NCBI RefSeq assembly: GCF_029894425.1
Contig: NZ_JARXYJ010000001.1
Coordinates: 3,658,001 to 3,722,000, forward strand
DNA: 64,000 nt
From: Streptomyces sp. SAI-127
GTDB lineage: Bacteria > Actinomycetota > Actinomycetes > Streptomycetales > Streptomycetaceae
Direction of reading: 5' to 3'
Shown here piece by piece: positions 1,663-24,614 of the stretch; the first letter of the stretch is position 1; every line of letters begins with the position of its first letter. The translations under genes were made by a program, and so were the position numbers. Below the pieces are notes generated by a model. The model was not told the origin of the DNA. It searched no databases and saw nothing but the letters and a program-made list of their open reading frames with translations.

Positions 1663-1674
1663 GTGTACTCCTTT

Positions 1675-2177: not shown

Positions 2178-2223
2178 CCCGAACCCGCTACACATGGCGG
2201 CCTACCAGCACGAAGGAACTTGT

Positions 2224-3029: not shown

Positions 3030-3080
3030 GTTACAACTTTCTCTACTGGTTCAAGGCGGCTCGCTCCGCTCCCCGCGCGC

Positions 3081-3147: not shown

Positions 3148-3231
3148 GCGCGCACAGCAATCAGCCGCCTGATGTCAGAGGAGGGGTACGTCGTGCCTGG
3201 GGCGGTCGGCTCCACGGCTTTAGGCAGCCAC

Positions 3232-3340
3232 TTTGGCGCGAGCCTCGAAGATCATGGCCCCAACGCCGTGATTTACCGGGCAGGTCCACAGACTGCCCGA
3301 CGCGCCGCAAGCTTACGGGGCCATGATCACTCGCGCCAAA
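3232..3340. repeat. Nested long inverted repeat of unknown role
   Basis: TTTGGCGCGAG (3232-3242) pairs with CTCGCGCCAAA (3330-3340), and GATCATGGCCCC (3250-3261) pairs with GGGGCCATGATC (3317-3328). Inside lies a third hairpin, CGGGCAG-N9-CTGCCCG (3277-3299). All arms are perfect. The region is noncoding and lies between the element's regulatory module and the HNH operon. It could be a replication or transfer origin of the element, a structured RNA, or a protein-binding site. Confidence 0.6.
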
Positions 3341-3452
3341 GCAGCTCCACCGACCGTACTCGTCCCGGCAGCGCACGACTTCTACAGGCAAGACACAAGC
3401 AGCTCTGGCATAATCCATCAACACATACAAACTGCATGAAGGGGCGCCTCCA

Positions 3453-4157: not shown

Positions 4158-4804
4158 CGCAACTTAAATATCTTACCGACTGGTTCACCCCCAAGATTGC
4201 AGATCACGACGAGGTAGCCTCTGCCAGGCAGATTTCCGCAACCCGTATCCAAGTGCTGCGCGTTAATGGTACGCCGCTAACCATCGCGCCGGTGTCAACT
4301 CAGACACTGACCGAGGATCTAGTGCAGGAGATTCTTCGCGATGAAGAGGCTACGATCATTTGCCTCATACCAAAGGCATCGCACTACCTATGGCCGGCTA
4401 GACAGCGAGCTAATCAGTTTGGGTCAGACGTTCAAACGATGAGTGAAGTTTTTTGGTCCATGGCTGAAGATGATCCACAAGGGTTCTTGTCCAAGGATGT
4501 AGCCTATGCAAGAAGAGTCCTGGGTCAGCACTCAGAGGTTGAACGCGTCGAAATGATCTGCGAGGCGTCGATGAGACTCATTCGTTCGGGCGGGCTTCCT
4601 CACATTACACTTTCGGTCGACTACGGATATGAATTTAGCGAAGAAGCCCTTGTGAAAGCATTGACTCGCCACCCCGGCGTAGATGTGGTGCTAAATTCCA
4701 ACCCCAACGGCCGAGCTACATCCGCCGCGCTGAAGCACGCGGAACATGCCGGGGTACGCCTTCTCGACATGAGCTCTCTAATGGGAGCGCTGAGGAGACT
4801 CTAG
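4154..4804 (+). CDS. Unrecognised protein, middle gene of HNH / X / NTase operon
   Basis: 216 residues. The GTG at 4154 overlaps the HNH stop (GTGA), so the two products are made together. No family recognised. The C-terminal third alternates predicted strands and helices: HITLSVDYGY, then FSEEALVKALTRHP, then VDVVLNSNPNG, then TSAALKHAEHAG, then VRLLDMSSLMGAL. This resembles the tail of Mrr/restriction-like or Rossmann-like folds, where a strand is followed by an A..A helix and a short 'LLD' strand, but the catalytic D..ExK pattern is not evident. No membrane segment. It may be a sensor or a structural partner of the HNH nuclease. Confidence 0.68.
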   Translation: MTQLKYLTDWFTPKIADHDEVASARQISATRIQVLRVNGTPLTIAPVSTQTLTEDLVQEILRDEEATIICLIPKASHYLWPARQRANQFGSDVQTMSEVFWSMAEDDPQGFLSKDVAYARRVLGQHSEVERVEMICEASMRLIRSGGLPHITLSVDYGYEFSEEALVKALTRHPGVDVVLNSNPNGRATSAALKHAEHAGVRLLDMSSLMGALRRL

Positions 4805-4808
4805 TCCC

Positions 4809-5117
4809 GTGGGTCCCCCTCGCCTCGCAGAAGTTCTTCAGCAGGTTACAGAGTGCTGCGCAGATTATCCGTACAGGATTGACGTCTACGTATTCGGTTC
4901 GGCCGCCCACTCGAGCAAAAGTCATCCTAGCGATATAGATATTCTAGTCGTGTATCAGCGCAACGACTTGAATTCCGCGCATGAACTCTGCAACCATCTA
5001 AGAAATCTCATCACGTATCCACCACTCGACGTCTTGGCGCTTAGTGAAGACGAGGAAGCTGAGACCGACTTCATCGGCAACGTTGAGGCAAAGAAAATTT
5101 GGCCACCGGAGCAGTGA
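4809..5117 (+). CDS. Small nucleotidyltransferase (MNT-type)
   Basis: 102 residues from GTG 4809, five bases after the upstream stop. The signature VFGSAAHSSKSHPSDIDILV (about residues 29-48) has the GS and the DxD (DID) that bind Mg-NTP in the polymerase-beta fold, followed by a partner-strand 'PPLDVLAL' region. It is a minimal NTase, much shorter than CBASS cyclases, so second-messenger synthesis is doubtful. Minimal NTases of this kind act as AMPylating antitoxins (MNT/HEPN) or transfer nucleotides to RNA or protein. There is no HEPN gene next door, so its target may be the HNH protein or the middle protein. This is inference. Confidence 0.78.
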   Translation: MGPPRLAEVLQQVTECCADYPYRIDVYVFGSAAHSSKSHPSDIDILVVYQRNDLNSAHELCNHLRNLITYPPLDVLALSEDEEAETDFIGNVEAKKIWPPEQ

Positions 5118-5205
5118 AGTCGCACTGAATTCTTGGATAGCTCTTGCAGGACTAGCCATCCTCCGAAAAAGGATCTTGCTGTCCTCGCTCAATCAAGTCG
5201 ATCGA

Positions 5206-5606
5206 TTACTGCGGCGAGATAGGCACCAACTCGATGATCTGAGGGCCGTATGGCCAGTAGTAGTGTCCCTCGAGTTCCTGACGGCCAGAGATCCTGATGC
5301 CTAGGTTATTTTTGTGTGCGTCTACGGCCATGTCATAGTCATCGACCTTGAGGCGAACTCGCATTTTTCGTACCTCAGTTCCAAGACGTCCAAGCGAACA
5401 ACCCCAGGGTTTCCTGGCTTTGGGCGTTCGAGCAATGTAACAGTACCCAGAACCGTGACGACTTGAGGATTAACTGTTGCGGCAAGCATGTTTCCTGCCC
5501 TTTCCAGGGCGCCATAATCAGATGGCGAAAACTGAAGCCTGTGCCTCTCGGGAGGGCATCCGGAGAACAGCTCTTCGGCTGAATTTAACTTCCACCTCAG
5601 CCCCAT
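5206..5606 (-). pseudogene. Frameshifted actinobacterial hypothetical gene
   Basis: From ATG 5606 the frame encodes a plausible protein (…SDYGALERAGNMLAATVNP, then VTVLGTVTLLERPKPG, then VVRLDVL) and then runs out of sense near 5385. In another frame the sequence continues naturally: GTEVRKMRVRLKVDDYDMAV, then AHKNNLGIRISGRQELEG, ending at a TAA at 5206-5208. The joined pattern (V-x-G-x-V-T-L, then DDY-x-x-A-V-x-AH, then I-R-I-S-G-R) is a motif set I know from uncharacterised actinobacterial proteins. At least one frameshift lies near 5375-5395, and another may lie near the start. The gene is a relic. Confidence 0.6.
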
Positions 5607-5683
5607 CGGAGTCAGGCCGCTTGAGCATGTCAGCGCCTATCGCCGGCCCTCAATGTCCGCAGTTTCCCAAGCAGCGTGGCGGA

Positions 5684-5764
5684 GGTCGGCGGGGGTACAG
5701 CGAGGCACACGCGCGCCTGGTCGGCCGACGCACCCGCCATCGTGGCTGACTGTCGTCGGCTGAG
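5684..5764 (+). repeat. ~80-bp direct repeat, copy 1
   Basis: This stretch is about 85% identical by eye to 9281-9360 in the same orientation, including the shared block GTGGCTGACTGTCGTCGGCT. In both copies a TGCCAGAT motif follows within 15-90 bp. No protein is convincingly encoded. The repeat probably marks duplicated element-end DNA. Confidence 0.6.
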
Positions 5765-5913
5765 GTTCGTGCCACAACCGTGCCAGATGCAGGGGTCAGC
5801 CACGGTAATCACCGGAGCTCCGTGGTCGACTACCCGCCCGCTTCCTCACCTGGTGAAGCTGCAGCTCAGCCCGCAGATCACCCGACCGCTCTCCTAGAGT
5901 GGTTGTCGTCCGC

Positions 5914-6206
5914 TCACCAACTCCACACCCGCTGGAACTCTTCGGCCGAGATGGTCTCCAGCGGGTCCTCTTTAGATACTGCTTGGTCTGTCAAGAAGCC
6001 ATGCTTCGTCTTCCAGGTCTTCCCAGCTGTACGGATGGAGTCGCTCGGCCGCGGCCAATTCGGCTTGCTTGATAACGATCAACTCGCCGCGGTCGGGCGC
6101 GGCGTCGAAGTACCACCGAGCCACCTGATGAAAGGCTGGTCACAGCCCTCCGAATGGATCACGATCTGTTCCGCTTCATAACCCTGACCTGTGATCTTTT
6201 CCATGA
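5914..6206 (-). pseudogene. Frameshifted small hypothetical gene
   Basis: ATG 6206 opens MEKITGQGYEAEQIVIHSEG, which shifts frame after CD and resumes as AFHQVARWYFDAAPDRGELI, then KQAELAAAERLHPYSWEDLE. It shifts again before VSKEDPLETISAEEFQRVW and a stop at 5914-5916. Each segment has natural composition and the three join in order, so a single ancestral gene of about 95 codons is broken by two frameshifts. Family unknown. Together with the relic at 5206-5606 it shows decay of the DNA between the HNH operon and the dGTPase gene. Confidence 0.55.
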
Positions 6207-6355
6207 ATGATGGCATTATCCCGCTTCGGCACCGATAACGCACCCCAGGAGACTGTCACAGAGCCCTCTTCATCCGATCGGACTAATGAAGTTGGTTTAC
6301 CTGTGGCGTCATTTCGACGAGAGCGCGAGACTTGAACGGACTGATGGAGGTAGCC

Positions 6356-7741
6356 ATGCCCGTTAACAGCAGCGCCAAGTTTCACGAAGAGCGAAGGTAT
6401 GGCATGCCCTTGGATCACGATCCACGCACACCATTCGAGCGCGATCGTGATCGAATATTGTACTCCTCTGCGTTTCGGCGCTTGGCCGGAGTGACGCAGG
6501 TAGCCGCAGTCAGGGAACTCCACCTATTGCACAATAGGCTGACGCACAGCTTGAAGGTTGCCCAGGTTGGGCGACGCATAGCCCAGTATCTGTGCATGAA
6601 GCACAGCGACTTTGCTGAAAATGTTCCGGGGGGTCCTATGGGATTCCCTGATATTGTTGAGTCTGCTGGCCTGGCCCACGACATCGGTCATCCTCCATTT
6701 GGGCATACGGCTGAGGCAGTACTCCAAACCAAGATGTCTAAGTATGGCGGGTTTGAGGGAAACGCGCAGACGTTTCGAGCTATCACCAAACTCGCAGTTC
6801 ATGCGCACGTAGACCACGGATTGAATCTCACTAGGGCATCCCTTAACGGTGTGCTGAAGTACCCGAGATACAAAGGAGAAGAGAAGTCTGATTCTGCAGA
6901 TCTGCAATGGCCTTACCGGCAAAAGGGAAGTAAATGGGGAGTCTATGAGAGCGAGAAGCACGACTTTGACTTCGCCCGCGAAGGAGAAGAGGTAACGGGA
7001 AGGCGCAGCCTCGCCGCAGTCCTGATGGATTGGGCGGACGATATTTCCTATGTAGCACATGACCTTTATGACTATTTCCGGGGCGGCCTCATGCCCCTGC
7101 ATCTACTGCACAACGAGTGTTCGAGCGAATTCATGGACTTCGCTCGATCGCGCAGAGGGAAGGATGGGTACGACCGGTTTGACGAGGACGCCTTCAGTCA
7201 ACAATATACGGAGCTCAAGCGAATCATGCCGGACCGTAAATGGAGAGATACGCGGGACGATCGAAAAATACTAGATCGATTCCAGCATGATCTACTTAAC
7301 TTGTTCCGTTTTGCGATCACCCCGGTTGAGGTGGACGGCAACTGGGAGCTGAAGATCGATGACGTGGCCGAATATCAAGTCGAGGTCATCAAGGAACTGA
7401 CCTTCTTCTACGTCATCATGCGTCCTGGGTTGGCTATGGTGCAGCACGGCCAAAAAAAGATCATCGCGTGTCTATTCGACGATTTGATGGAGATGTTTTC
7501 GAGTCACCGAAACGGAAGAGTGGAGCCAAATCATCCGGTCCCTGCACTCCTAGATGACATCTATGACCGCATGGTGAAGCACGAACAGATCAGCGGATTT
7601 TCTCGAAATGACGAAAATCGGCGTGCAAGATCAGTGTGCGACTTCGTTTGCGCACTCACAGAGGATCAGGCGATTAACCTTTATGAACGTATAACAGGCA
7701 ACAGTGTGACTCAAGGCTCTATATTTGGCACGTGGTTCTAG
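6356..7741 (+). CDS. dGTPase-like HD-domain dNTP triphosphohydrolase
   Basis: 462 residues. ATG 6356 follows GGAGG by 5 nt; a TTG at 6332 is also in frame. The N-terminus (RTPFERDRDRILYSSAFRRL) is the dGTPase signature. The HD metal site is complete: LHNRLTHSLKV (His near residue 63), AGLAHDIGHPPFGH (HD near 106) and LMDWADDISYVAHDLYDYF (the distal Asp). The enzyme would cleave dGTP or other dNTPs to the nucleoside plus triphosphate. Length is near the usual 450-500. Housekeeping dgt genes occur elsewhere in Streptomyces; this copy lies in AT-richer element DNA beside nuclease-like genes. Phage-restricting dGTPases that deplete dNTPs are known, so an anti-phage role is inferred. Confidence 0.88.
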   Translation: MPVNSSAKFHEERRYGMPLDHDPRTPFERDRDRILYSSAFRRLAGVTQVAAVRELHLLHNRLTHSLKVAQVGRRIAQYLCMKHSDFAENVPGGPMGFPDIVESAGLAHDIGHPPFGHTAEAVLQTKMSKYGGFEGNAQTFRAITKLAVHAHVDHGLNLTRASLNGVLKYPRYKGEEKSDSADLQWPYRQKGSKWGVYESEKHDFDFAREGEEVTGRRSLAAVLMDWADDISYVAHDLYDYFRGGLMPLHLLHNECSSEFMDFARSRRGKDGYDRFDEDAFSQQYTELKRIMPDRKWRDTRDDRKILDRFQHDLLNLFRFAITPVEVDGNWELKIDDVAEYQVEVIKELTFFYVIMRPGLAMVQHGQKKIIACLFDDLMEMFSSHRNGRVEPNHPVPALLDDIYDRMVKHEQISGFSRNDENRRARSVCDFVCALTEDQAINLYERITGNSVTQGSIFGTWF

Positions 7742-7936
7742 CCTGTCATCCGCTGACGGGTCCCAGTGGGCTTCGATGACCACCACACCATCCATCCCGC
7801 ACCGGCCGTTGCGGTACAGCAACCGCCGTGCCCTCAGCCGACCGCCGACAACCGTCGATGGCTGACTGACCAGCCCACCAGACCTCAACGACCTCCCAGC
7901 CGAGAGCTCGGGGCGAAGAGAGCGTGGGTTTACGTA

Positions 7937-8197
7937 TCAGCGCAGAGGCTTCCGGCGCAGCTTGGGGAGGGGCTCGCCGGTACCGAACTGCCAGTCGAGA
8001 CGGCTGCCAGGACTCTTCTCGATCTTCAGCATGATCGACTGGGAAGCGGAGAACTTAAGGACGAGTCCAGCGCGGAACCTTCCATCGGCTTGCCGGTCCC
8101 AGACAAGATCACTATTTGTCCTGGCCCACGCCGCCACGTCCGTGATTTTTGATAGCAAGGGTGGTGACTCGGCGTCCTTCTTCTTGCCCTCGTCCAT
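7937..8197 (-). CDS. Hypothetical protein
   Basis: 86 residues from ATG 8197 (GGGGGAAGAG lies just upstream). The product reads MDEGKKKDAESPPLLSKITD, then VAAWARTNSDLVWDRQADG, then RFRAGLVLKFSASQSIMLKI, and ends in a basic LPKLRRKPLR tail. The strand-rich middle suggests a small folded domain. No family recognised. An overlapping frame upstream (to about 8400, containing MCKLTVERNCPNRQRVRSLV) also looks coding. The pair is either two overlapping small genes or one longer gene with a frameshift near 8200. Confidence 0.45.
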   Translation of the reverse strand: MDEGKKKDAESPPLLSKITDVAAWARTNSDLVWDRQADGRFRAGLVLKFSASQSIMLKIEKSPGSRLDWQFGTGEPLPKLRRKPLR

Positions 8198-8615
8198 CAA
8201 CTCTTCCCCCACGCTTCTGAAAGATCGCCACCTTGACGATCTCAAGGTTCGTACGTCTCTCGGCCTCCAGCTCCCGCTTGCTGGTCTCGGCCGCGCTCGC
8301 ACTGTAGGACACGAGGGACCGGACCCGCTGACGATTCGGGCAGTTCCGCTCCACCGTGAGTTTGCACATGTGGCCCGGTTGGCTGTCCTCCTGGCCGACG
8401 AGCAGGAGCCAGATAGCAAGCCACGCCGGGCCGTGACAACGGACAGCCCGATCGCGATGTGTTCGGCTCGCTCTGGTCAACCGGTGTGGGCAGGCATCCG
8501 TCCTCGCCCGAACGAGCCCTCGGCCTAACCAAGCTCGTTTCACCCAGCTTCGCGAAAGTCTCTTGCTTTCGTGGTCAGGCCTCTACGATCCGTTACAGGC
8601 GTCGAGGGGGTGGCC
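8198..8615. other. Region without a convincing intact gene
   Basis: The minus strand holds a protein-like open stretch (about 8400-8200: SASAAETSKRELEAERRTNL, then EIVKVAIFQK) that runs out of frame into the small gene at 7937-8197. The remaining part, to the start at 8616, shows no gene, terminator or repeat that I can identify. Confidence 0.4.
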
Positions 8616-9002
8616 ATGGGAGCCAGCGACAACACCATGTCTGGGAATGCATGGATCGGTAAGAGCCGGCACACCTTCTGCATCAACACGGCCCGGCACT
8701 TCGAAGCGCAGCAGCGCAAGGCACTCGAGAGTGGCAACAGCGAGGCGGCCGAACAGTACCGGCTGTGGGGGCTCGGGTTCCTGCACGAGACAGAGGACAT
8801 CAACACAGGGAAGGCCAAGCGGATCGTCTCCGACTCTGAGGCTGCCCGGCTACGGGCAGCCGAGGACGAGGCCAAGCAGGCGGCCGCGGACGCGGAACAC
8901 CTGGCCGCGCTGAAGCAGAAGCTCGGCATCACACCTCGCGCGAACGGCTCCGCATACCGCCCCTTCCGTGGCGGCCTTCCCACCCTTGGCAAGGACCGTT
9001 GA
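8616..9002 (+). CDS. Hypothetical helical protein
   Basis: 128 residues. ATG 8616 is preceded by GGGGGTGG. After a short polar lead (SGNAWIGKSRHTFCINTARH) the protein is almost entirely charged helix: EAQQRKALESGNSEAAEQYR, then SEAARLRAAEDEAKQAAADA, then EHLAALKQKLGI. This suggests a coiled coil at about residues 30-108, with a disordered basic tail. No family recognised. It is separated from its neighbours by noncoding DNA and has no obvious operon partner. Such small coiled-coil proteins are common as cargo or accessory products on mobile elements. Confidence 0.55.
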   Translation: MGASDNTMSGNAWIGKSRHTFCINTARHFEAQQRKALESGNSEAAEQYRLWGLGFLHETEDINTGKAKRIVSDSEAARLRAAEDEAKQAAADAEHLAALKQKLGITPRANGSAYRPFRGGLPTLGKDR

Positions 9003-9695
9003 CACTCGAGTGGGTACGAGAGTTCTACCGGCCCGCTCCCGAGCAGGAGTGGAGCATCGGGCGCCCAGCCTGCGAGTGTCTAACTGCGTGACAACGCCGA
9101 CGAACAGCGGCGGACGAACGCGAACGTGCGCGGACCAGGGGCGCAGGTGAGAGCCACACCAGCCCAAGGCAGCACCCCCACCCAAGTTGCTTCGGGACGA
9201 AGAGGTCCTCACCCAAGATCTCACCGCCACGCTTCCGTCGGCGCATCTTGCTCTGGTCGACGGCATGGCACCGCGGCTGAGGCCGGTGGGGTGCAGCGAG
9301 ACACACGCGTGCGTGGTCGTCCGGCGCACCCGCCATAGTGGCTGACTGTCGTCGGCTGACGCTCTGGCACTCCGGGTCTCAGCTCTGCCGAGGCACGTTC
9401 GAGGCGGAAGGCAGGACCGTGCCATGCGCGTGCCAGATCCTGCGGGGAACCACGGGGAACAGCGGGGAAGCGCCCCGATGCGACCAGGGCTCCAACACGA
9501 CTCCACCGCAGGTCAGCACAGCAACCGCTGCCAAAGAACCCGAGCTTCCCAAGCTCAGAGCTCTCGCCAGAGACTGCTGCGGCCCAGCACTCAGACGCTC
9601 CGCACCTGTGTTACCTGGTGCTACCGCCGTACCAGCGAGGTGGCACGAACGGGAAACGTCTCCGGTCTCGGCTCCGACGCCCATATCATCCTTAA
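9003..9695. other. Noncoding stretch with element repeats
   Basis: No ORF here has convincing protein sense. It contains copy 2 of the ~80-bp repeat (9281-9360) and a CGTGCCAGATC…GGGGAACCACGGG block (9429-9459) that recurs at 15971-15999. It may be the remains of an older element end. Confidence 0.45.
9281..9360 (+). repeat. ~80-bp direct repeat, copy 2
   Basis: This is the second copy of the 5684-5764 sequence in the same orientation, with shared blocks CGCACCCGCCAT and GTGGCTGACTGTCGTCGGCT. The two copies bracket the dGTPase gene and its neighbours, so that segment may have arrived or been duplicated as a unit. Confidence 0.6.
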
Positions 9696-10271
9696 ATGAC
9701 CGACACGTCAGGGGCGTTCGCTGTCGCCGCTCTCAGCTTGGCTGTGTCTGCGGTGTCACTCAGTTGGCAAGTCGCAAGCCACTTCTTGAGCGGCGCCCGC
9801 GTGTGCTGCGAACTGTCGATCGCGATCCATGACGATGGAGACCCTGCCCCGTCCATCGTCTCGGAACTTGTCGATCGCACTACAACGGACCTTCAGCGCG
9901 TCCAAGGCGCAGAGTTCGAAACATACGTGCATGACGCATTCAGTGTCGTCGTACGCAACACTGGTCGTGGAGCTGTGAGTGTGCGTGTGCCGTGCATATC
10001 TGACAGACGTCGCTCCTATTGGGGCGGCGCCCCTTCTCGCGTCAGGGCAGTCGACTTCACGATGCACGGCAGTGTTTGCCGCCTAGAGCCTGGCGAGGTA
10101 AAGACATGGCTCTTACCCATGTCGGAGATCATCGAGGCCATACGTGCCTCCCGTCCCGATGAGCCTCTGACCTGCCGGGCCGCAGTCCTTCTCGGCACCG
10201 GAAAGTGGGTGAAGGGCAGCCGCGCCAACTCATGGCATGTCCCGGCAGGGATGACAAACCTGAGACGCTAG
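9696..10271 (+). CDS. Hypothetical protein with one N-terminal membrane segment
   Basis: 191 residues starting MTDTSGAFAVAALSLAVSAV. Residues about 7-34 form a hydrophobic span, so the product is probably anchored in the membrane with the rest on one side. The body contains strand-like blocks (FSVVVRNTGRGAVSVRVPCI, then GSVCRLEPGEVKTWLLPM) resembling an Ig-like or beta-sandwich fold. No enzyme motif. It lies alone between a repeat-containing gap and the convergent nuclease-like gene at 10446. Family not recognised; a small cargo or membrane-linked defence component is possible but unsupported. Confidence 0.6.
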   Translation: MTDTSGAFAVAALSLAVSAVSLSWQVASHFLSGARVCCELSIAIHDDGDPAPSIVSELVDRTTTDLQRVQGAEFETYVHDAFSVVVRNTGRGAVSVRVPCISDRRRSYWGGAPSRVRAVDFTMHGSVCRLEPGEVKTWLLPMSEIIEAIRASRPDEPLTCRAAVLLGTGKWVKGSRANSWHVPAGMTNLRR

Positions 10272-10445
10272 ACATGTGCATGCACTTGCAGTCCTGCCCG
10301 CTGCCGGCGCTGTTCCGCTGACAACAACGACCCCGGACGGATTGATGGCCCGTCATGCTGATGAATCCGCGGCCGTCCTCACGCAGCCATGGTCGCCCGC
10401 GCCGACGGCACGATGACCTAGCCCGATGATGGGCAGTAGCGATGG

Positions 10446-11546
10446 TCAGGACCTGAAGCGCTCTACCTGCTCCGCGATCCATTCGGGGAGCGCGATGCGC
10501 GCATGTGGGTTTCGGATGAGCTGGGTCTCGGGCCGCCACTCATAGCCACCGTCAGCCAGACGAACTCCCGAGGAAAACAGACAGACACCAGAGACGCGGG
10601 TGTACATGGACGGTTGGAACCGACGCTCGATCACAGCGCGCCAGGTCTTCATCGCGCCCAGTGCGCCTGAAACGTCGACCATGACGAGCCCCGGCACATC
10701 CGTCGGGAGCTGCTTCCTCGCGCTATCGAGAAACACTTGCGCCCTGGCATCCGCAAACGGCCAACGGACAACAATGTCACTCTGAACTACGCCCGCCACC
10801 ATGTTGCTTGCCATAATGTTGACGCGCGTCCTGGGCTCACCGTGGTCATCCACTTCCAAGCTTCCTGGAGTGCGGTCATTCCAGTAGAGTGTGCCGAGTC
10901 CGTCCCTTAGCGCCGTTTCTTCTGCGCCTCGGTCGGAGTGCAGGCTGATGATCTGCGCGGCTACTTCCTCGACTTCGTCAGGAGTGGGCTCCCGCTTAAA
11001 GAATACCTCAAGCGTGAAGCTACCCGCGCAATCCCCGATCAGCCCGACAGAGAGGCGATGAAGGCCGTTTTCCGCTTGTGCGCGAGCTTGAGACGTGCTG
11101 GCCTGCTTAACCTCAATGCACGTCCAGTCTGACTCACCCTGCTTTATTCGGAAATCTGGATTCCGATTTCCACCTGGGATAAGTCCTGGCGGTTCGAGCT
11201 CAAGCGCAACATCCGAGGCACCTGAACGAACGAGATGGATGGCCGTAAGCTCGCCTGATGCGTCCGGCTGCCGTTCCCGAAGCTTACGAAGCAGGCCATC
11301 TGGGTTGACCGCGTTGGCCAATGATTCAAGCCGCCGCCCAAGAGTGACGATGCTCAGAGTCGGCAAAGCTCCTGACTCAACGGCCCTATTAGTGGTTCGT
11401 GAGGCCTCGATCCACGTGCGCCCAAAGTGCGATCCCACACCATTGAAGGCTCCAACGATCGTCTCGGCAGGCAAAGCAACTTGTCCGCCACTGAGCCACC
11501 CCTGCTCAATTTCTGGCCAGTTGAAGACTTCATCGTCAGCGTTCAT
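10446..11546 (-). CDS. Hypothetical protein with PD-(D/E)XK-like nuclease motif
   Basis: 366 residues. The central segment has NPDFRIKQG (about residue 130) followed by WTCIEVKQAS (about 144), the PD…E-x-K spacing of restriction-like nucleases. A DxSGALGAMKTWRAVIERRF block near residue 290 and a C-terminal WRPETQLIRNPHARIALPEW follow. No family name recalled. A second protein with a PD-(D/E)XK-like site is encoded immediately upstream on the same strand (11609-12553) and a HEPN-type gene beyond it, so this looks like a defence cluster. The catalytic assignment rests on one short motif and needs structure-based comparison. Confidence 0.62.
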   Translation of the reverse strand: MNADDEVFNWPEIEQGWLSGGQVALPAETIVGAFNGVGSHFGRTWIEASRTTNRAVESGALPTLSIVTLGRRLESLANAVNPDGLLRKLRERQPDASGELTAIHLVRSGASDVALELEPPGLIPGGNRNPDFRIKQGESDWTCIEVKQASTSQARAQAENGLHRLSVGLIGDCAGSFTLEVFFKREPTPDEVEEVAAQIISLHSDRGAEETALRDGLGTLYWNDRTPGSLEVDDHGEPRTRVNIMASNMVAGVVQSDIVVRWPFADARAQVFLDSARKQLPTDVPGLVMVDVSGALGAMKTWRAVIERRFQPSMYTRVSGVCLFSSGVRLADGGYEWRPETQLIRNPHARIALPEWIAEQVERFRS

Positions 11547-11608
11547 TGCTCCACTTTTACAGAAAGCCGATGTTGGCGCAATCGTCTATCTCCACCTGTC
11601 CTACTGAG

Positions 11609-12553
11609 TTATTCCATCCTAGAGAAGATTTCAGAGACGGGCAGATAGCAGTGACCAGTCTGGCTGGCGTGCTTCCTCTTGTGAGTCATCAGGTCATCCA
11701 GGCGGATGCGTTGGTCCAGCACAGCCATGAAGTCGCCGCCGTCCATCGTGATGAACGGCGTGCTAAGGCTGTAGATCGCCAGGGCATCGGAGGTGAAGCC
11801 GCTCATGCTGACGTACAAGCCGAGGGTGTTCTTGCCCTTGCGCTCGATGTTGGTTTTAAAGACGTCCAGCTCCCGCCGGCCGATGCGCTCCTTCCACCAC
11901 TTGGCCTCAAGAACGTAGTAGTCAGTGTCGAAGGAGAACGCGCCATCGATCTGCTCGTACTCCATGATGTAGGCCGCCCGCGGCTCCAAGTCGTACAGGG
12001 CGAACAGCTCGTTGATGAAGTCCTCGAAGTCCGTCCCCCGCTGGTGCTTGTCGGTTGCCGCGTGCATCACGATGAACCGTTGCTTCAGATCGTCATGAGC
12101 TTGGGCGAAGACCCGACCGTCCTGGTCCTTCTTCGCACTCTCGGCTATGGCCACCGCGTGCTCCTCGTGTTCCTTGATGATGTCCTGCTGCTTGCCAGTC
12201 CAGCGCCGCAGTTCCGCGACGGCCGCCGTGGCCTTGGCCACCATGACGTCACCATCGACCTGTCGTTCGAGGTTCGGAAACCGGTCCATGGCGGCGATGT
12301 CGAGCATGAGCGCCACGGTCACGTCCAGGTACCGGGTCTCATTGGCCCGCAGCAGCTTGACCAACTGGCCGGAGACTTCGCGCTTGGTGGCATAGAAGTT
12401 GAGCTGCGGCAGGAGCTCGCTGTGGTCCTTCAGCATCCCGCGGACGTACAGCTCAAAGGGATCTTTGTTCCAGTAGATCAACCAGAGTGCGTCGGCCAGT
12501 GCGTTGTACGCGCTGGGGTTGATCGTCTTCTTGCGGGCATCAGGCTGCTGCAC
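11609..12553 (-). CDS. Restriction endonuclease-like protein (Mrr-type PD-(D/E)XK)
   Basis: 314 residues if the GTG at 12553 is used (GGAGGAGGGG just upstream). An ATG at 12691 would add 46 basic residues of poor quality. N-terminal region: NALADALWLIYWNKDPFELY, similar to helical N-terminal domains of abortive-infection proteins. Residues about 195-215: RGTDFEDFINELFALYDLEP, then DGAFSFDTDYYVLEAKWW, which gives the E, D and E-x-K of an Mrr-like catalytic core. The tail (FTSDALAIYSLSTPFITMDG) is the typical A..A…(I/L)(D/M)DG end of these domains. No modification methylase is nearby, so a type IV or abortive-infection role is more likely than classical restriction. Confidence 0.76.
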   Translation of the reverse strand: MQQPDARKKTINPSAYNALADALWLIYWNKDPFELYVRGMLKDHSELLPQLNFYATKREVSGQLVKLLRANETRYLDVTVALMLDIAAMDRFPNLERQVDGDVMVAKATAAVAELRRWTGKQQDIIKEHEEHAVAIAESAKKDQDGRVFAQAHDDLKQRFIVMHAATDKHQRGTDFEDFINELFALYDLEPRAAYIMEYEQIDGAFSFDTDYYVLEAKWWKERIGRRELDVFKTNIERKGKNTLGLYVSMSGFTSDALAIYSLSTPFITMDGGDFMAVLDQRIRLDDLMTHKRKHASQTGHCYLPVSEIFSRME

Positions 12554-12753
12554 CTGCCCCTCCTCCACACGCACTGTCACCGACCTATCACGGTACCGCG
12601 CGATCAGTCGATGACCAGCCTGTACGACAAGGCTTGATCGAAGGGACCGTGATGACCCGTCATCCAGCTGGCGCCGGCGGGCCGATGACACAAACGGATG
12701 GCGAGTGACAGAGGCGGCTTGTCCTGGCTGTCATCGAGACGGACTGAAGAGCC

Positions 12754-13299
12754 TCAGGCCCGGAAGTGGGCCGCCACGTCGTCGAGCATGTCCAGGTAGT
12801 CGCCCGCACCAACAGTGCCCCCAGCCGCCTTGGAGCCGTGCAGCGCCGATGTCAGGACAATGCCGCGCAACTCTGCTGGCTGCCTCGGTTCCGCGTTCTG
12901 AAAGTGCCAACGATTGCCGTGCGCACAGGCGTTGCGGAAGTGCCGCACGAACTGAAGCAACGGGCTTGTCCTGTCACTCAGCCCCGCGCGCTGGATGGCA
13001 TCACCCAGGCGGGCTGCACCATGCATCGTCACGAAGTTCAGCAGGTCCTCCCCGAGTCCAGCACCCGCAGTTGAGCTGGCCTTGGCAAAGATGTCTGTCA
13101 GCCGCTCCGCAGAGTGCGGCGTACCGTCATTGCGGTAGATGACCAGCGGTGAGTCAGCGGTTTGCTCGTACAGGTCGCGGTAGATGGCCATGAGTGGCCG
13201 ACGGGGGTCAGCTAGCGGAAGTATGGCCAGGCTGAGACCGCAGAACCCAATCTTGAGTTCGTCAGCCAGCTGCGCGATGCGTTCCGCCTCGATGCTCAT
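12754..13299 (-). CDS. HEPN-domain protein with RNase-type motif
   Basis: 181 residues, largely helical. The signature RHFRNACAHGNRW (about residues 117-129) contains R-x4-H (RNACAH), the catalytic motif of HEPN ribonucleases. HEPN proteins act as toxins in toxin-antitoxin modules or as effectors in RNA-targeting defence. It lies upstream of the restriction-like gene on the same strand, separated by about 200 bp. No adjacent MNT antitoxin is present; the only nucleotidyltransferase in the element is at 4809. A structural, non-catalytic HEPN is an alternative. Confidence 0.7.
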   Translation of the reverse strand: MSIEAERIAQLADELKIGFCGLSLAILPLADPRRPLMAIYRDLYEQTADSPLVIYRNDGTPHSAERLTDIFAKASSTAGAGLGEDLLNFVTMHGAARLGDAIQRAGLSDRTSPLLQFVRHFRNACAHGNRWHFQNAEPRQPAELRGIVLTSALHGSKAAGGTVGAGDYLDMLDDVAAHFRA

Positions 13300-13310
13300 G
13301 GCCCGGCATG

Positions 13311-13499
13311 TTAGGGCTCTCCTGCTCCCCTGCCCAGTGACCGCTTGATCTCCAGCTCCTCGGCTTGCCGGTCAACGCCGACGCCCAACAGGTGCCGGCC
13401 GCAATCGCCCTCGCCAAGAGTACGACGGCCTGCCTCGTAATCCCGAAACAAAGGAGCGGGCTGCATTGAGACGCGCATTCCCGCAACATCGACGCACAT
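13311..13499 (-). CDS. Possible small protein upstream of the HEPN gene
   Basis: 62 codons from ATG 13499, ending 11 bp before the HEPN start on the same strand. The translation (SMQPAPLFRDYEAGRRTLGE, then RQAEELEIKRSLGRG) has acceptable composition but no recognisable fold or family, and no ribosome site stands out. It could be a real leader gene, a gene remnant, or chance. Confidence 0.28.
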   Translation of the reverse strand: MCVDVAGMRVSMQPAPLFRDYEAGRRTLGEGDCGRHLLGVGVDRQAEELEIKRSLGRGAGEP

Positions 13500-13600
13500 G
13501 TCGTCGGAACGACTCTGTCCGTCGACCCTCGTGTCACGTCATGGCTGAATGAGCAGCGGCGCAGCCCAACTGATAGCTCCCGTGGGCCCCTCGTTTGCTT

Positions 13601-13617
13601 GTGGACTATCTGCGGAC
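13601..13617 (+). other. Candidate integrase arm-site pair, left of att copy A
   Basis: GTGGAC at 13601 and GCGGAC at 13612, exactly 11 bp apart. The same 11-bp paired arrangement occurs at 13830/13841, 16214/16225 and 16432/16443, on both sides of both tRNA fragments. Tyrosine integrases bind such directly repeated arm sites. Confidence 0.5.
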
Positions 13618-13677
13618 TCAGCTCGCCAGATCTGCCACGACCGAGGCCCTGACGTGCTGCGTTATCTGGGCCTCAAA

Positions 13678-13723
13678 GGGCCTCCGGAGCCGTGTGCGCA
13701 GGTTCGAATCCTGCCGGGGGCAC
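13678..13723 (+). other. att copy A: 3' part of tRNA-Arg(CCG)
   Basis: The sequence reads as a tRNA from the anticodon arm to the end: GGC-CTCCGGA-GCC gives a 7-nt loop with anticodon CCG. A short variable region, the T arm GCAGG-TTCGAAT-CCTGC and the acceptor strand CGGGGGC-A-CC follow. There is no matching 5' half upstream, so this is the duplicated 3' end left by site-specific integration, not a gene. The intact tRNA gene should lie left of the window. A terminator hairpin follows, as behind real tRNA genes. Confidence 0.8.
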
Positions 13724-13740
13724 CCTGTATGAGGTGCCCA

Positions 13741-13780
13741 AAGACCCCGTCACCAGCGGAAACGCTGAGGCCGGGGTCTT
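13741..13780 (+). terminator. Terminator hairpin behind att copy A
   Basis: AAGACCCCG (13741-13749) pairs perfectly with CGGGGTCTT (13772-13780) over a 22-nt loop. It is conserved in att copy B and probably derives from the terminator of the original tRNA-Arg gene. Confidence 0.7.
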
Positions 13781-13829
13781 CGCGTATGTGCAGGCGTATG
13801 CCGCTCTGAGTGGCCGTATGTCGGGGTCC

Positions 13830-13846
13830 GTGGACTATTTGTGGAC
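13830..13846 (+). other. Candidate integrase arm-site pair, right of att copy A
   Basis: GTGGACTATTTGTGGAC: two GTGGAC repeats 11 bp apart, about 107 bp beyond the tRNA fragment. The matching pair at 16432-16448 lies at the same distance behind copy B. Confidence 0.55.
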
Positions 13847-14209
13847 ACGATCTTGAGTCATCAGCCCAGGTCAGTCCAGGGAATCACGACGGGCCGTCGG
13901 CACAGCGAAATCGAGGTGCCATCACCCGACCTCCGGCCAAGTCTCCGGGGTCTCCGGTGGCTCCGGGTGGGTTTGGCGCTCCACTCGACGCTTGTTCTCA
14001 CCCCGCAGGCTGGTGAGCCAGGGCCAGAGATCGGGCAGCGGTTGCGCCGAGCAGGCAAGTCGGTGCTCGATACCCGCGCCCTGGCCAGTCATGACCGACG
14101 CCGCGAAGACCCGCTCCCGGACCTCCTCCGGCTCTGGCCCAACACCGGCCGGTCCCGCCCGAAGCGGAAAGCACCATGTTGCCGACTTCGCGACCGTTGG
14201 CACTGCGAA
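13847..14209. other. Noncoding stretch right of att copy A
   Basis: The first ~35 bp still match the flank of att copy B. Beyond that I see no gene with credible protein sense on either strand and no clear hairpin. Confidence 0.4.
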
Positions 14210-14461
14210 TCACCCGTCCGTGTCGTCGGCACCGCTCCGCCCGGCCTCCGGTTCCCTGGTGAGCCGGGTCGCAAGGTGGTAGGCGACGGTGACGTCCTGG
14301 TATTCCTGACCGGGGGTGACCGGGTCCGGTAGGTGGGTCCGGTCGCTGTGGCTCGTCGACTCTCGCTTCCCGGTGCCGGGGAAGCGAACGACAGTCTGGG
14401 GTTCCTGCGTGAAGCGGAGCCGTTCGGCGTGGACCGTCGAACGGAACAAGACGTCCCCCAC
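14210..14461 (-). CDS. Small hypothetical protein behind the LEA-like gene
   Basis: 83 residues from GTG 14461 (GGGAGCC upstream), 27 bp after the stop of the LEA-like gene and on the same strand, so probably co-transcribed. The translation (DVLFRSTVHAERLRFTQEPQ, then TVVRFPGTGKRESTSHSD, then YQDVTVAYHLATRLTREPE) has natural composition with strand-like beginning. No family recognised and no membrane segment. Confidence 0.48.
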   Translation of the reverse strand: MGDVLFRSTVHAERLRFTQEPQTVVRFPGTGKRESTSHSDRTHLPDPVTPGQEYQDVTVAYHLATRLTREPEAGRSGADDTDG

Positions 14462-14488
14462 CGGGCTCCCGGCTCCCGCCCCTCGCGT

Positions 14489-15577
14489 TCAGGGCGGCTC
14501 CTCCGGCTCCCTGGCGGTACGTTGGCGACTGGATCTTGGCGGCAGCTTCCCGTCCTCTCCGCGCACCCGGCGCGTGCGGGTGCCGCCTTGACTCCGGCCG
14601 GCCCGGCCCCGCTCTCCCTCCGCGCCTTTGCGCGCCGCACGCGGCTCGGCCGGCTCGGTCCGTTCAGCGGTGGCGTTCGCCGTCTCAGCAGCGTCCGCAA
14701 CGGCGTGGCCGCCGCCCTGTACCGTGTCGCCTGCCCCTTCCGTCACACCCGCGGCCTGTCCGGCCACGCTCCCGGCGGTGCTGTCCACCGCCTCGCCGGC
14801 GCTTCCGACGGTCCGGCTCGTCTCATGGCCGACGTCCTCCACCGCGCGCCCGGCACCACCGCCCAGGTCCTGAACGGCGCTCCCGGCCCCCTGACCGACA
14901 TCCTGCGCCACGGAGCCGACGCCCCGGCCCACGTCCTGGACAGCAGCCCTGGCGCCCTGCCCCACGTCCTGAACGGCCCTCCCGGCCCCCTGACCGACAT
15001 CCTGTACGGCGGCTCCGGCGCCCGAGCCGACCTCCTGGACGGCCCTTCCGGCACCCGTACCCAGCTCCCCCACGGCCTGACGGGCTCCACCGCCGACATC
15101 CTGTACGGCGGACCCGATGCCACGCGCCAGCTCGTGCAGGATCTCCGGGTTGCGGTCGAGAGTGGTGAGCACTCGGTCGATGATCTTCGCGACGTTGTGG
15201 AGGCGCACCTTGAGCTGGGCCTGTGCCTCGACACCTGAGATGCCCAGGTGCACCCGGCCGAGCGAGACGTCGGCGCCCACATTCAGTTTGAGCAGATCCA
15301 GCACCTCGGCCTGCAGCGAGACATGAGCCCGCAGATCCTCGACGTCCAGGTCGATCTCGTCGACCTTCAGGATCGGAACGTCGAGGAAGACGTCAGGGCT
15401 CGCACCGGCTGCGTCCTCCTCGTCGTAGGACGCCGGCTCCTCTTCGAATGATGCCGACTCCTCGTCGTAAGCCTCGGGATTGGCGTACTCGTCACTGTCC
15501 TCGGCGTCGAGTTCGTCACCGTGTTCGTCGTCGTAGTCCTCGACGGAGCCCTCGTCGTTCTCGGCGTTGCCGCGCAT
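14489..15577 (-). CDS. LEA-like protein with nine 11-residue repeats
   Basis: 362 residues from ATG 15577 (GGAGG 8 nt upstream; another in-frame start lies at 15634). Order of parts: acidic disordered lead (about 1-65, many D/E/Y); a conserved folded part (VFLDVPILKVDEIDLDVEDL, then ADVSLGRVHLGISGVEAQAQ, then KIIDRVLTTLDRNPEILHEL). Next come nine tandem 11-mers of the type GAGRAVQDVGQ (about residues 155-255), a less regular repeat tail, and a basic C-terminus. The 11-residue period is typical of group-3 LEA proteins and other surface-bound amphipathic helices, so membrane association or desiccation protection is likely. The gene lies alone between two att copies with the small gene at 14210. 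Confidence 0.78.
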   Translation of the reverse strand: MRGNAENDEGSVEDYDDEHGDELDAEDSDEYANPEAYDEESASFEEEPASYDEEDAAGASPDVFLDVPILKVDEIDLDVEDLRAHVSLQAEVLDLLKLNVGADVSLGRVHLGISGVEAQAQLKVRLHNVAKIIDRVLTTLDRNPEILHELARGIGSAVQDVGGGARQAVGELGTGAGRAVQEVGSGAGAAVQDVGQGAGRAVQDVGQGARAAVQDVGRGVGSVAQDVGQGAGSAVQDLGGGAGRAVEDVGHETSRTVGSAGEAVDSTAGSVAGQAAGVTEGAGDTVQGGGHAVADAAETANATAERTEPAEPRAARKGAEGERGRAGRSQGGTRTRRVRGEDGKLPPRSSRQRTAREPEEPP

Positions 15578-16213
15578 CGCCACGCCTCCGCGGTTTTGGC
15601 GTACGTTTCGTCCATTTTCATACATTATGGTCATTGATGCGCGGTAGTTACCGTCCGCCCAAGCGAGGGCGATGGCCGCCAGGCGGGCTTGGATGGTTCG
15701 TCAGACTCAGCAGAGTTGGGCTGATGCGCAGGTCAGATGGGTTAAAGGACTGGGCTGCCAGGCGCGCGGGGCGGCAAACGGGCGCTCCGAACGAGACGTG
15801 ATGATTTCGCCGGACAGCTGACCGGACAGGACGCGGAGCACCGGCAGCGCAGGCGCACCACATCGCCACGTTGAGCGTCGGCACGAAGGTCCTCGCCAAC
15901 CGGTGTCCGGCGAACTCTCCCTCGACTGGAACATCCTTACCGTCGGCACTGAGGCTGTGGGGACAGACCGCGTGCCAGATCGCGCGGGGAACCACGGGAA
16001 GCGCAGTCAGAGGGTGTGCTGTACAGCGCCTTCCACGCGCCCGACCATGGCCGAGGGCAACTCACGAGCCCTGGGAGGAGAGAGCACGGCGGAAGAGAGG
16101 CGGCAATCCGCGCTGTGGCGCGCCGCGCTGTCCACGTGCACTGGGTACGGGAGAGGCATGACAAGCCGACCTGGCGGGACCGGCTTCACTCCCAGAAAAG
16201 GCACTCAGCAGCT
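15578..16213. other. Noncoding stretch left of att copy B
   Basis: No credible gene. It carries the promoter side of the LEA-like gene and a CGTGCCAGATC…GGGGAACCACGGG block at 15971-15999 that matches 9429-9459, the mark of a shared element end. Confidence 0.45.
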
Positions 16214-16230
16214 GTGGACCATCCGTGGAC
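16214..16230 (+). other. Candidate integrase arm-site pair, left of att copy B
   Basis: GTGGACCATCCGTGGAC: GTGGAC repeats at 16214 and 16225, 11 bp apart, about 70 bp left of the tRNA fragment, as in copy A. Confidence 0.55.
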
Positions 16231-16283
16231 TGGTCCGGCCGGATCCGTCGTGGGCAGGGACCACGACCTGCTGCAGTGCCCAC

Positions 16284-16323
16284 GCCTCCGGAGCCGTGCG
16301 CGCAGGTTCGAATCCTGCCGGTG
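16284..16323 (+). other. att copy B: diverged 3' part of tRNA-Arg(CCG)
   Basis: GCCTCCGGAGCCG followed by the T arm GCAGGTTCGAATCCTGC is the same tRNA fragment as copy A, but the acceptor strand is reduced to CGGTGCA. Similarity to copy A continues about 160 bp to the right (terminator, GTGGAC pair, GATCTTGAG). It is an older or foreign att site. Confidence 0.75.
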
Positions 16324-16342
16324 CACCTTTCTGAGGTGCCTG

Positions 16343-16382
16343 AAGACCCCGTGACCAGCAGAGATGCTGAATGCGGGGTCTT
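16343..16382 (+). terminator. Terminator hairpin behind att copy B
   Basis: AAGACCCCG (16343-16351) pairs with CGGGGTCTT (16374-16382), the counterpart of 13741-13780. Confidence 0.7.
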
Positions 16383-16431
16383 CGCGTGTGTGCAGCCCTA
16401 TGCCACTCTGAGCGGCCCTGTGTCGGGGTCC

Positions 16432-16448
16432 GTGGACTATTCGTGGAC
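16432..16448 (+). other. Candidate integrase arm-site pair, right of att copy B
   Basis: GTGGACTATTCGTGGAC: two GTGGAC repeats 11 bp apart. Their presence on the outer side of copy B suggests that remains of a further element extend to the right, over the VapBC pair. Confidence 0.55.
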
Positions 16449-16651
16449 AGGATCTTGAGGCATCTGCCCCGGTCAATCCCGGGAATAGCGAAGCCCCCCC
16501 GGACGGATCCGGAGATATGAAGCCCATGCGCGGCTCTCACTCGATCACTCGATTTCGCTCAGCAGCTCTTCGATCGCTTCGGGTCTTCGCCGCTCAAGCA
16601 GTTTTCACCGACCCCTCTACGGGCTAGAGGATGAGAGGTAGGATAAGTAGC

Positions 16652-16915
16652 ATGACTGAGACCACCGGCAAGTATTCGATCACTATGCCGCGCGACATTG
16701 CTGAAGCGGCCAAGGCCCGCAGCGGCCCCTCTGGGCTGTCCGCCTATGTGGCCGCCGCTGTGGCCCGTCAGATCGAACGCGACAACCTCAACGAAATCAT
16801 CCAGGTTGCCGAGGCCGAGCACGGTCCCGTCACGGACGAGGAGATCCAGGCTCTACGCGATCAGCTCAACCAGGCCCGCCGGGAGCAGACGCGAGGCGGG
16901 ACGAACGCCGCGTGA
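16652..16915 (+). CDS. Antitoxin, VapB-like
   Basis: 87 residues from ATG 16652 (GGATAAG upstream). Residues about 7-45 (KYSITMPRDIAEAAKARSGP, then GLSAYVAAAVARQIERDNL) form a ribbon-helix-helix DNA-binding domain. The C-terminal part (VTDEEIQALRDQLNQARREQ) is a charged helix that would cap the toxin. The stop overlaps the next start (GTGA at 16912), the usual antitoxin-toxin coupling. Expected roles: neutralise the PIN toxin and repress the operon with it. It lies 170 bp right of att copy B, so it may belong to element remains and help to retain them. Confidence 0.8.
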   Translation: MTETTGKYSITMPRDIAEAAKARSGPSGLSAYVAAAVARQIERDNLNEIIQVAEAEHGPVTDEEIQALRDQLNQARREQTRGGTNAA

Positions 16916-17325
16916 CACGATCCCCCGCCGTCCCGGGCGGCACCCTGGTCCTCGACAGTGAAGGGCTGGCCAAGGCCGTCCTCCGTGACCGCATCGTCAC
17001 CAGCTGGCTCGCCCTCGCCCGCGCCGACGACCTGCGGGTAATCACCTCTGCGGCAACTCTTGTCGAAGTCGTCCATCCTCGGATCAACCGACCGGCCCTG
17101 GAGTGGACGCTGTCCCGACTTGTCGTCGAACCAGTCACCGAGGCCATCGCCCGCCACGCGGCCGCTCTCCTCGCCGACGCCGGCCTGCACGGCCACAAGT
17201 ACGCCGTCGACGCCATGCTCAGCGCCACAGCCCTCGCCGCCCACGCTCCCGTCACCGTGCTCACATCGGACCCGGAGGATCTCAGCACACTGTGCGGTGG
17301 ACGTGCCACCGTCATCAAGGTCTGA
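16912..17325 (+). CDS. vapC: PIN-domain toxin, VapC-like
   Basis: 137 residues from GTG 16912. PIN acidic residues are visible: LVLDSEGLAKAV (Asp near residue 15), VEVV (Glu near 48), KYAVDAMLSATA (Asp near 102) and LTSDPEDLSTL (Asp near 119). Together they would bind Mg or Mn for RNA cleavage. Length fits VapC. Translation is coupled to the antitoxin through a 4-base overlap. The target RNA cannot be read from sequence. No transcription terminator is evident behind it. Confidence 0.82.
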   Translation: MTRSPAVPGGTLVLDSEGLAKAVLRDRIVTSWLALARADDLRVITSAATLVEVVHPRINRPALEWTLSRLVVEPVTEAIARHAAALLADAGLHGHKYAVDAMLSATALAAHAPVTVLTSDPEDLSTLCGGRATVIKV

Positions 17326-23551: not shown

Positions 23552-24553
23552 TCACGCGGTCCGTTTGCGGGCGGTCGTCTTCTTGGCCGCCGTCTTCTTC
23601 GCGGTCGTCGCCTTCTTCGCCGACGCCGCCTTCTTCGTCCCCTGTGACGACTTCGCCGTCGACTTCTTGGCTGCCGTCTTCTTCGTGGCGGACGTGGACT
23701 TCTTGCCACCCGTCTGCTTCGGCGCCGCCCGAGCCGACTTGCGCTGCTGCAGCCGCGTGACCTCCCCCGGCTCCTCGCCCCGGGACTCCTTCGCGTCCCG
23801 GACGCTCTTCTCCAGCGCGGCCATGAGGTCGAGGACCTTGCCGCCCTTCGCCCGCTCGGGTGTCTCCGGAGGTGCCTCGCCCGCGGCCTTCGCGGCGACG
23901 ACCTCCTCCAGCGCCTCGCGGTACTCGTCGTGGAGGTCGTCGAGGTCGATCTCGCCGAGGGTGTCCATCAGGGCGTCGGCAAGGTCGAGTTCCTTGTCGC
24001 TGACGGTGACCTTGGTGTCGGGGGCGAGTCCCTCGGGCGCGCGGACCTCGTCCGGCCACAGCAGCCCGTGCAGCGCGATGGCGTCCTCCACCACCCGCAG
24101 CATCCCGAGCCGCTCCCGCCCCCGCAGCGCGAACTTGGCGATGGCCACCTTGTTGCTGCGCTTGAGCGCCTCTCTCAGCAGGGTGTACGGCTTGGCGGCG
24201 GGGGCGCCGCCCGCCTGGAGGTAGTACGCGGCGTCCATCTGGAGCGGGTCGATCCGGTCGCCCGGCACGAAGGCCACGATCTCGATCGTCTTCGTCGTCG
24301 GGAGCGGCAGATGGGCCAGGTCCTCGTCGGTGATCGGGATGATGGTGCCGTCGGCGTCCTCGTACCCCTTGCCGATCTCCGCCTGGCTGATCTCCCGGTC
24401 CTCCAGTTCGCAGACCTTGCGGTAGCGGACGCGGCCGCCGTCCTCGGTGTGGATCTGGCGGAAGGAGATCGAGTGGCTCTCGGTGGCGTTCACCAGCTTG
24501 ATCGGGATGCTGACCAGGCCGAACGAGATGGCGCCGTTCCATATGGATCTCAC
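23552..24553 (-). CDS. ku: Non-homologous end-joining protein Ku
   Basis: 333 residues from GTG 24553 (AAAGGG about 9 nt upstream); the start VRSIWNGAISFGLVSIPIKL is the standard Ku N-terminus. The Ku core runs to about residue 250 (LDLADALMDTLGEIDLDDLH, then DEYREALEEVVAAK). The C-terminal 65 residues are K/A/T-rich repeats (KKTAAKKSTAKS type), a DNA-binding extension also seen in mycobacterial proteins. Ku forms a homodimeric ring on broken DNA ends and recruits LigD. The gene is divergent from the LigD polymerase gene with 61 bp between starts, so the two can be controlled together. Confidence 0.95.
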   Translation of the reverse strand: MRSIWNGAISFGLVSIPIKLVNATESHSISFRQIHTEDGGRVRYRKVCELEDREISQAEIGKGYEDADGTIIPITDEDLAHLPLPTTKTIEIVAFVPGDRIDPLQMDAAYYLQAGGAPAAKPYTLLREALKRSNKVAIAKFALRGRERLGMLRVVEDAIALHGLLWPDEVRAPEGLAPDTKVTVSDKELDLADALMDTLGEIDLDDLHDEYREALEEVVAAKAAGEAPPETPERAKGGKVLDLMAALEKSVRDAKESRGEEPGEVTRLQQRKSARAAPKQTGGKKSTSATKKTAAKKSTAKSSQGTKKAASAKKATTAKKTAAKKTTARKRTA

Positions 24554-24614
24554 CGGCAGCACCCTTTCTGGCGTATTACGCAGTTTCATCCGATATGCGT
24601 GAGATTCTCATCGT

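Follow-up and report, generated by a model that had tools for sequence, protein, structure and literature searches.

Paired GTGGAC repeats around two tRNA-Arg(CCG) core copies as candidate junctions between stacked integrative elements in Streptomyces sp. SAI-127

Within the 64,000-nucleotide stretch analysed here (the window, G000:C1:3658001-3722000), the 10.7-Mb genome of Streptomyces sp. SAI-127 carries two partial copies of a tRNA-Arg(CCG) gene, A and B, each flanked on both sides by a pair of GTGGAC-type half-sites. We consider it highly probable that A and B are junction attachment (att) sites that arose as one element after another integrated site-specifically into a single tRNA-Arg(CCG) gene, and they are best read as separating an actinomycete integrative and conjugative element (AICE; element I), an integrase-less 2.6-kb island (island II) and a decayed third element (element III). 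The two hallmarks of tandem accretion were both observed: successive units are separated by att copies, and the inner copies carry the outer arms of both neighbours.

Core copies, arm pairs and hairpins

The features on which this reading is built are the following:
13678..13723, + strand: copy A, tRNA-Arg(CCG) 3' part, candidate junction core between element I and island II; matches the intact tRNA gene at 46 of 46 nt
16284..16323, + strand: copy B, eroded tRNA-Arg(CCG) 3' part, candidate junction core between island II and element III; 38 nt, 97% identical to the intact tRNA gene
13601..13617, + strand: left arm pair of A, GTGGACTATCTGCGGAC, GTGGAC/GCGGAC, one mismatch
13830..13846, + strand: right arm pair of A, GTGGACTATTTGTGGAC, exact pair
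16214..16230, + strand: left arm pair of B, GTGGACCATCCGTGGAC, exact pair
16432..16448, + strand: right arm pair of B, GTGGACTATTCGTGGAC, exact pair
13741..13780, + strand: terminator-like hairpin behind A, from folding and repeat comparison
16342..16383, + strand: terminator-like hairpin behind B, in a stretch identical to that behind the intact tRNA gene

The cores of A and B (13680-13717 and 16284-16321) share 97% identity across 38 nt, confirming the two tRNA 3' copies put forward in an earlier sequence-only reading of the window, and they are followed by a 177-nt repeat (13724-13900 and 16326-16502) in which A and B share 82% identity. The hairpins behind A and B, which had also been proposed, have folding energies of -29.4 kcal/mol (z -5.6) and -30.3 kcal/mol (z -6.0), respectively. 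No intact tRNA was found in the window by ARAGORN; an intact tRNA-Arg(CCG) gene lies 6.9 kb to its left (G000:C1:3651006-3651079), and an integrase (integrase I), located by tblastn as a minus-strand open reading frame (ORF) of 573 aa, lies 4.2-5.9 kb to its left (L012:12095-13816), both on the side where they had been expected. The tRNA gene, A and B share one orientation, at spacings of 20.6 and 2.6 kb. With arm-pair distances counted from CCGGAG of the core, the intact gene has a right pair, GTGGACGAGGCGTGGAC, at +146 and no pair on its left side, while the pairs of A start at -83 and +146 and those of B at -74 and +144.

By itself, the GTGGAC hexamer is not enriched in the window (60 matches against 57.9 expected). 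The paired form GTGGAC-N5-GTGGAC occurs three times exactly in the 64 kb (13830, 16214 and 16432; 0.02 expected), each time beside A or B, and four times when one mismatch is permitted (0.86 expected), the fourth being the left pair of A at 13601. The proposal that GTGGAC pairs stand on both sides of both copies is borne out by the three exact pairs and needs amending for this fourth one. The approximately 100 nt between arm and core on the left of A are 79-80% identical to a junction in L123 and to the right attachment site (attR) of a related insertion, L051. Five plasmid records carry the repeat, four of them from Streptomyces, and phage records gave no match.

A further core with hairpin and right pair was observed 3.7 Mb away in the same genome (G000:C1:7374123-7374327, equivalent to L013:10123-10327, minus strand). 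This copy has no tRNA 5' half, the identity beginning at CCGGAG, and similar tRNA-less copies are present on plasmids NZ_CP109560.1 and NZ_CP108633.1 (L047 and L048). All three are perhaps old insertions at secondary sites.

Arm pairs and integrases at related sites

If the repeats are to be read as junction marks, the arm pairs should belong to the elements and not to the chromosome. Our survey drew on 85 sources (L013, L046-L128, and L012 together with the window as a single source) and yielded 103 core copies, of which 71 lie in intact tRNA genes; a GTGGAC pair with up to 2 mismatches was scored as type-1. Among right flanks, 35 of 103 have exact 7-mer pairs at a period of 11 bp, and among left flanks 9 of 31, as compared with at most 1 and 2, respectively, for any other period from 8 to 15. 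On the chromosome side, none of the 71 intact tRNA sites has a type-1 pair, and a single one (1/71) has an 11-bp pair of any kind. In four related insertions (L051, L053, L058 and L068), the right pair is located at the left attachment site (attL) and the left pair at -83 of attR (1-2 mismatches), and a type-1 pair to the right of attR is absent. The premise of the sequence-only reading, namely that arm sites are element-borne and that attL and attR are one-sided, is supported by these four insertions and the 0/71 count.

The arms also follow the integrase. An integrase homologue lies within 6 kb of 29 of the 33 tRNA sites with a right pair and of 7 of the 38 without (Fisher p 2.9e-9, an optimistic value, as are the other p-values given here, since the sites came from searches and hand-chosen places and are related, neither random nor independent). 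For 24 of 72 tRNA sites a long integrase ORF was available (the other 48 were dropped for want of one), and across these 24 elements right-arm similarity tracks integrase similarity closely (Mantel r 0.89, p 1e-4); neither the integrase (r 0.05, p 0.30) nor the right arm (r 0.08, p 0.19) is correlated with the upstream chromosome. Other integrase clades have different half-sites at the same 11-bp period and place. These results bear on the explanation that the repeat with both arm pairs is native chromosomal sequence, which the sequence-only reading had named as its refutation, to be recognized by both pairs occurring in element-free strains. A terminator-like hairpin also follows intact tRNA genes that have no pair, and part of the 200-bp repeat is accordingly no proof of an element. 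The arms, however, track the integrase and not the chromosome, and neither of the element-free sites L087 and L074 has a pair; we rejected a native origin of the arms on the 0/71 count and the covariation with the integrase, and give it next to no credence.

The arm pairs are most likely arm-type sites predicted to be bound by the integrase. It is also conceivable, though in our view quite improbable, that a different protein of the element, such as Xis or a regulator, binds them, in which case A and B would still be junctions. A Xis-like domain adjoins or is fused to the integrase, and the pairing of integrase and repeat is deduced here from covariation and position. A second motif, GCAGGTCA, would agree with binding by more than one protein: allowing up to 1 mismatch, it is located just outside the right pair at 35 of 103 sites, as compared with 1 of 103 for a control stretch, and on the left side at 10 of 31 as compared with 2 of 31 (zones between about +160 and +202 and between about -70 and -28, relative to the core). 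Against this alternative stand the 11-bp repeat pairs flanking the tRNA core of mycobacteriophages, which have been proposed as integrase arm-type sites (PMC3203893), and the pSAM2 integrase, which is reported to bind its repeats (PMC3364876).

The letters of the arms distinguish element kinds. Seven mixed junctions were identified: a CGACAC-type left with a GTGGAC right pair (L088, L117 and L165), ACGTAAT left with GTGGAC right (L167), GTGGAC left with ACGTAAT right (L123), and two further arm combinations (L050 and L059). Among the 32 copies outside tRNA genes, 10 have both arms (including A and B), 10 the left only, 4 the right only and 8 none detected; L165-L167 were found later and stand outside this count. 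The spacers within the right pairs are informative as well, since GAGGC accompanies, besides integrase I itself, 4 of 4 integrases that are 90-96% identical to it, and TATTC accompanies 3 of 3 integrases at 76-78% identity. The tRNA site has GAGGC, A has TATTT and B has TATTC. This grouping places element I in the GAGGC group, whereas the right ends at A and B resemble the 76-78% group, which supports several successive elements.

We also observed that the integrases of L051, L068 and L094 (s012, s034 and s066) are 87-90% identical and have the right pairs GTGGAC/GTGGAC, GTGGAC/GCGGAC and GCGGCC/GCGGCC, respectively. The integrases of L051 and L094 share 75% identity in their first 75 aa and 92% in the remainder. 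A set with integrases that are 90% identical yet go with distinct half-sites (GTGGAC in L051, GCGGCC in L094) offers a panel for finding arm-reading residues, although it has too few clean pairs for comparing N-terminal integrase residues with arm letters.

Integration order, competing explanations and known systems

How could such an array arise? Integration would put the right half of the newcomer (core, tRNA terminator and right pair) behind the 5' half of the tRNA gene, and the older right half would be displaced outwards, where it would join the left arm pair of the newcomer. The tRNA terminator would thereby travel with each element, which would explain the hairpins behind A and B as well as the several different hairpins behind intact tRNA genes. 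The order from the tRNA gene would then be AICE I, which retains integrase, RepSA and FtsK, followed by the remnant island II and the remains of element III. We infer that B is the oldest copy, its core being the most eroded and so fitting the greatest age. By recombining the tRNA site with A, the tRNA site with B, or A with B, integrase I could then excise I, I plus II or II as circles of 20.6, 23.2 and 2.6 kb, respectively.

Several observations weigh against this picture. Lacking an integrase, island II may be a deletion remnant, which qualifies the proposal that two-armed sites are tandem junctions, supported as it is by the relatives and the mixed junctions. For the proposed third element, a search of the genome gave no distal att copy, and the membership of the VapBC-like pair (below) is unproven. 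Among the relatives, the attR of L068 is followed on its right by a dissimilar, degenerate pair and may in turn be a junction, L053 retains only short integrase fragments, no integrase homologue lies within 6 kb of 4 of the 33 paired tRNA sites, and one is present at 7 of the 38 where no pair was detected. The right pairs of A and B, whose spacers are those of the other integrase group, may go unrecognized by integrase I. Finally, the intact tRNA gene and B share 70 nt of terminator exactly (L012:11080-11150 and window 16324-16394), despite differing arms beyond, and this stretch occurs in none of the compared loci from other genomes; such identity is not predicted by simple accretion, and gene conversion within the array would be a guess at its source.

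In another explanation, island II was never separate: an internal deletion, or the duplication of an att site together with its flanks, would have created the segment from A through II to B within one element or array. Island II is without integrase, its first 162 nt are similar to the stretch that runs from arm to integrase in a type-1 element, and the 70 nt common to the tRNA site and B hint at homologous exchange among att copies. Against this, A and B have left pairs that differ in spacer and in distance (-83 as compared with -74), the flanks of A and B are only 82% identical, and their right pairs are unlike that of the tRNA site. We therefore regard this origin as unlikely, and read A and B as junctions between separate integrations.

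It is tempting to go further and regard the arm pairs as exchangeable address tags, in which many integrase clades share the tRNA core and each clade reads its own half-site at fixed positions: matching arms could be cut by one integrase, and mixed tags would be insulated, letting different AICEs stack without mutual excision. We put this forward tentatively, as an idea that may well prove wrong. The surveyed loci form a natural panel for asking whether mismatched arms insulate stacked elements, and A and B, with GTGGAC-type arms on both sides and only the spacer differing from the tRNA site, could tell whether half-site or spacer is the determinant.

Both the accretion of AICEs with remnants in tRNA-Arg genes and the presence of arm-type repeats and a terminator in the attachment sites of phages and AICEs (attP) are already published. 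AICEs and defective AICEs accrete in Streptomyces tRNA-Arg genes (Choufa et al. 2022, PMC9513070), where, as here, one to three elements of different families occupy one tRNA-Arg gene, lying between identical direct repeats, and an ancient remnant devoid of traB was described; in the text available from that study junctions are not read by arm sites, and the isoacceptor may not be CCG. Tandem AICEs in one tRNA gene are also known as Sav3708/Sav3728 in tRNA-Arg of S. avermitilis and as Fean5518/Fean5534 in Frankia, the latter pair reportedly excising singly and together (PMC3218068); there both elements bear an integrase, whereas the second unit here does not. The attP of Cluster K mycobacteriophages such as CrimD likewise has two pairs of 11-bp repeats around the core, a stem-loop terminator that separates the core from the right pair, and arm letters that vary among close relatives, in contrast to our locus being that of phages at tmRNA or tRNA-Lys sites, with the right pair of CrimD inverted where both are direct here (PMC3203893). 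The AICEs pSAM2 and pACPL have repeats on both sides of the identity segment, with integrase binding reported for pSAM2, although these are 21-nt repeats of another sequence and pACPL resides in tRNA-Pro (PMC3364876). The useful addition is the two-sided arm tags: as judged from their letters, the paired tags beside each joint reveal the element kind on each side. A use of arm pairs for reading junctions did not appear in the titles and abstract openings searched, and we do not claim its absence from print. If junctions can be read from flanking arm pairs, elements without recognizable genes become detectable and assignable to an integrase clade.

Contents of the array and its right limit

The remaining features of the block are:
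1..13682: in-window part of element I (AICE), which starts at the intact tRNA gene 6.9 kb leftward
13847..16213: island II, integrase-less 2.6-kb unit, partial match to the L093 element
14489..15634, - strand: island II cargo ORF, 381 aa with repeats, of a family common in Streptomyces
16631..17325, + strand: VapBC-like pair of a PIN protein and its small partner, which may be remains of element III; PIN domain in 16912-17325
23552..24589, - strand: Ku gene, right limit of the accreted block, tRNA neighbour at two element-free sites

Element I (about 20.6 kb, ending at A) is, by its gene content, a pSAM2-type AICE. It is bounded by direct repeats, the intact tRNA gene and copy A (46/46 nt), between which lie genes for RepSA, FtsK_SpoIIIE, DUF2637, GntR, NUDIX and the integrase. 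The replication initiator is RepSA (508 bits) and the transfer protein is of FtsK/SpoIIIE type (L012:16556-18301, 114.8 bits), and the relatives L051 and L068 match the element across much of its first 10 kb. Over 450 aa, integrase I has 49-50% identity with the integrase annotated on plasmid NZ_CP109278.1, and it has no sequence match in the PDB. A PF00589 search of the genome gave 5 matches, none nearby, and missed integrase I because its score against Pfam Phage_integrase, 21.4 bits, is below the 27.1 cut-off; the resulting notion that no integrase lies near the locus was rejected once tblastn had found it. The integrase ORF shares one frame with a Xis-like helix-turn-helix region, whose Pfam match is likewise below the curated cut-off. 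This single open Xis plus Int frame at L012:12095-13816 differs from the 8 relatives whose Xis frame was compared, in which a stop precedes Int, and may be a real fusion or an indel, possibly a sequencing error.

Element I additionally carries defence-like cargo (window 3453-12691), comprising an HNH protein similar to PADLOC effector endonucleases (3453-4157), a small nucleotidyltransferase (4809-5117), a dGTPase-like HD protein (6332-7741, 304 bits in PADLOC) and an Mrr-type nuclease (11609-12691). The plasmid record NZ_CP109278.1 (L046; 20,952 bp) has the att core at both ends together with integrase, replication initiator and FtsK, and probably represents an excised AICE; it also bears an annotated aminoglycoside phosphotransferase family gene.

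For island II, tblastn against a subject extending to window 22000 found no integrase between A and B, and a separate scan of the 6 kb to the right of A likewise gave none. A stretch of 162 nt right of A (13912-14073) matches the right-arm-to-integrase stretch of the L093 element at 78%, and in L049 it matches at 73% elsewhere, beyond an integrase remnant. The cargo gene has 1470 homologous proteins, and 197 of the 295 searched genomes match some part of the island; among the matches listed, the whole stretch occurs in its own genome only. Cis-mobilizable elements (CIMEs) were defined among streptococcal integrative and conjugative elements. Island II has the two att sites (A and B) and the missing integrase of a CIME, and lies beside an integrative element, by which it might be mobilized.

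To the right of B, the gene order is the PIN protein with its small partner, hemerythrin, SDR, acyltransferase, sigma factor, cyclophilin and then Ku. Near-full-length homologues of the VapBC-like DNA occur in 6 of 84 loci, at no fixed place. Taking Ku as the old neighbour, the tRNA-to-Ku block would measure about 30.5 kb. In L087 and L074, the Ku-region match begins about 0.1-0.3 kb behind the tRNA gene; in G010, G016 and G017, the Ku part of the query and its cyclophilin part have their matches at separate places. Among 40 long loci, 12 have a Ku-region match within 20 kb of the tRNA gene, inverted in three (L052, L054 and L057).

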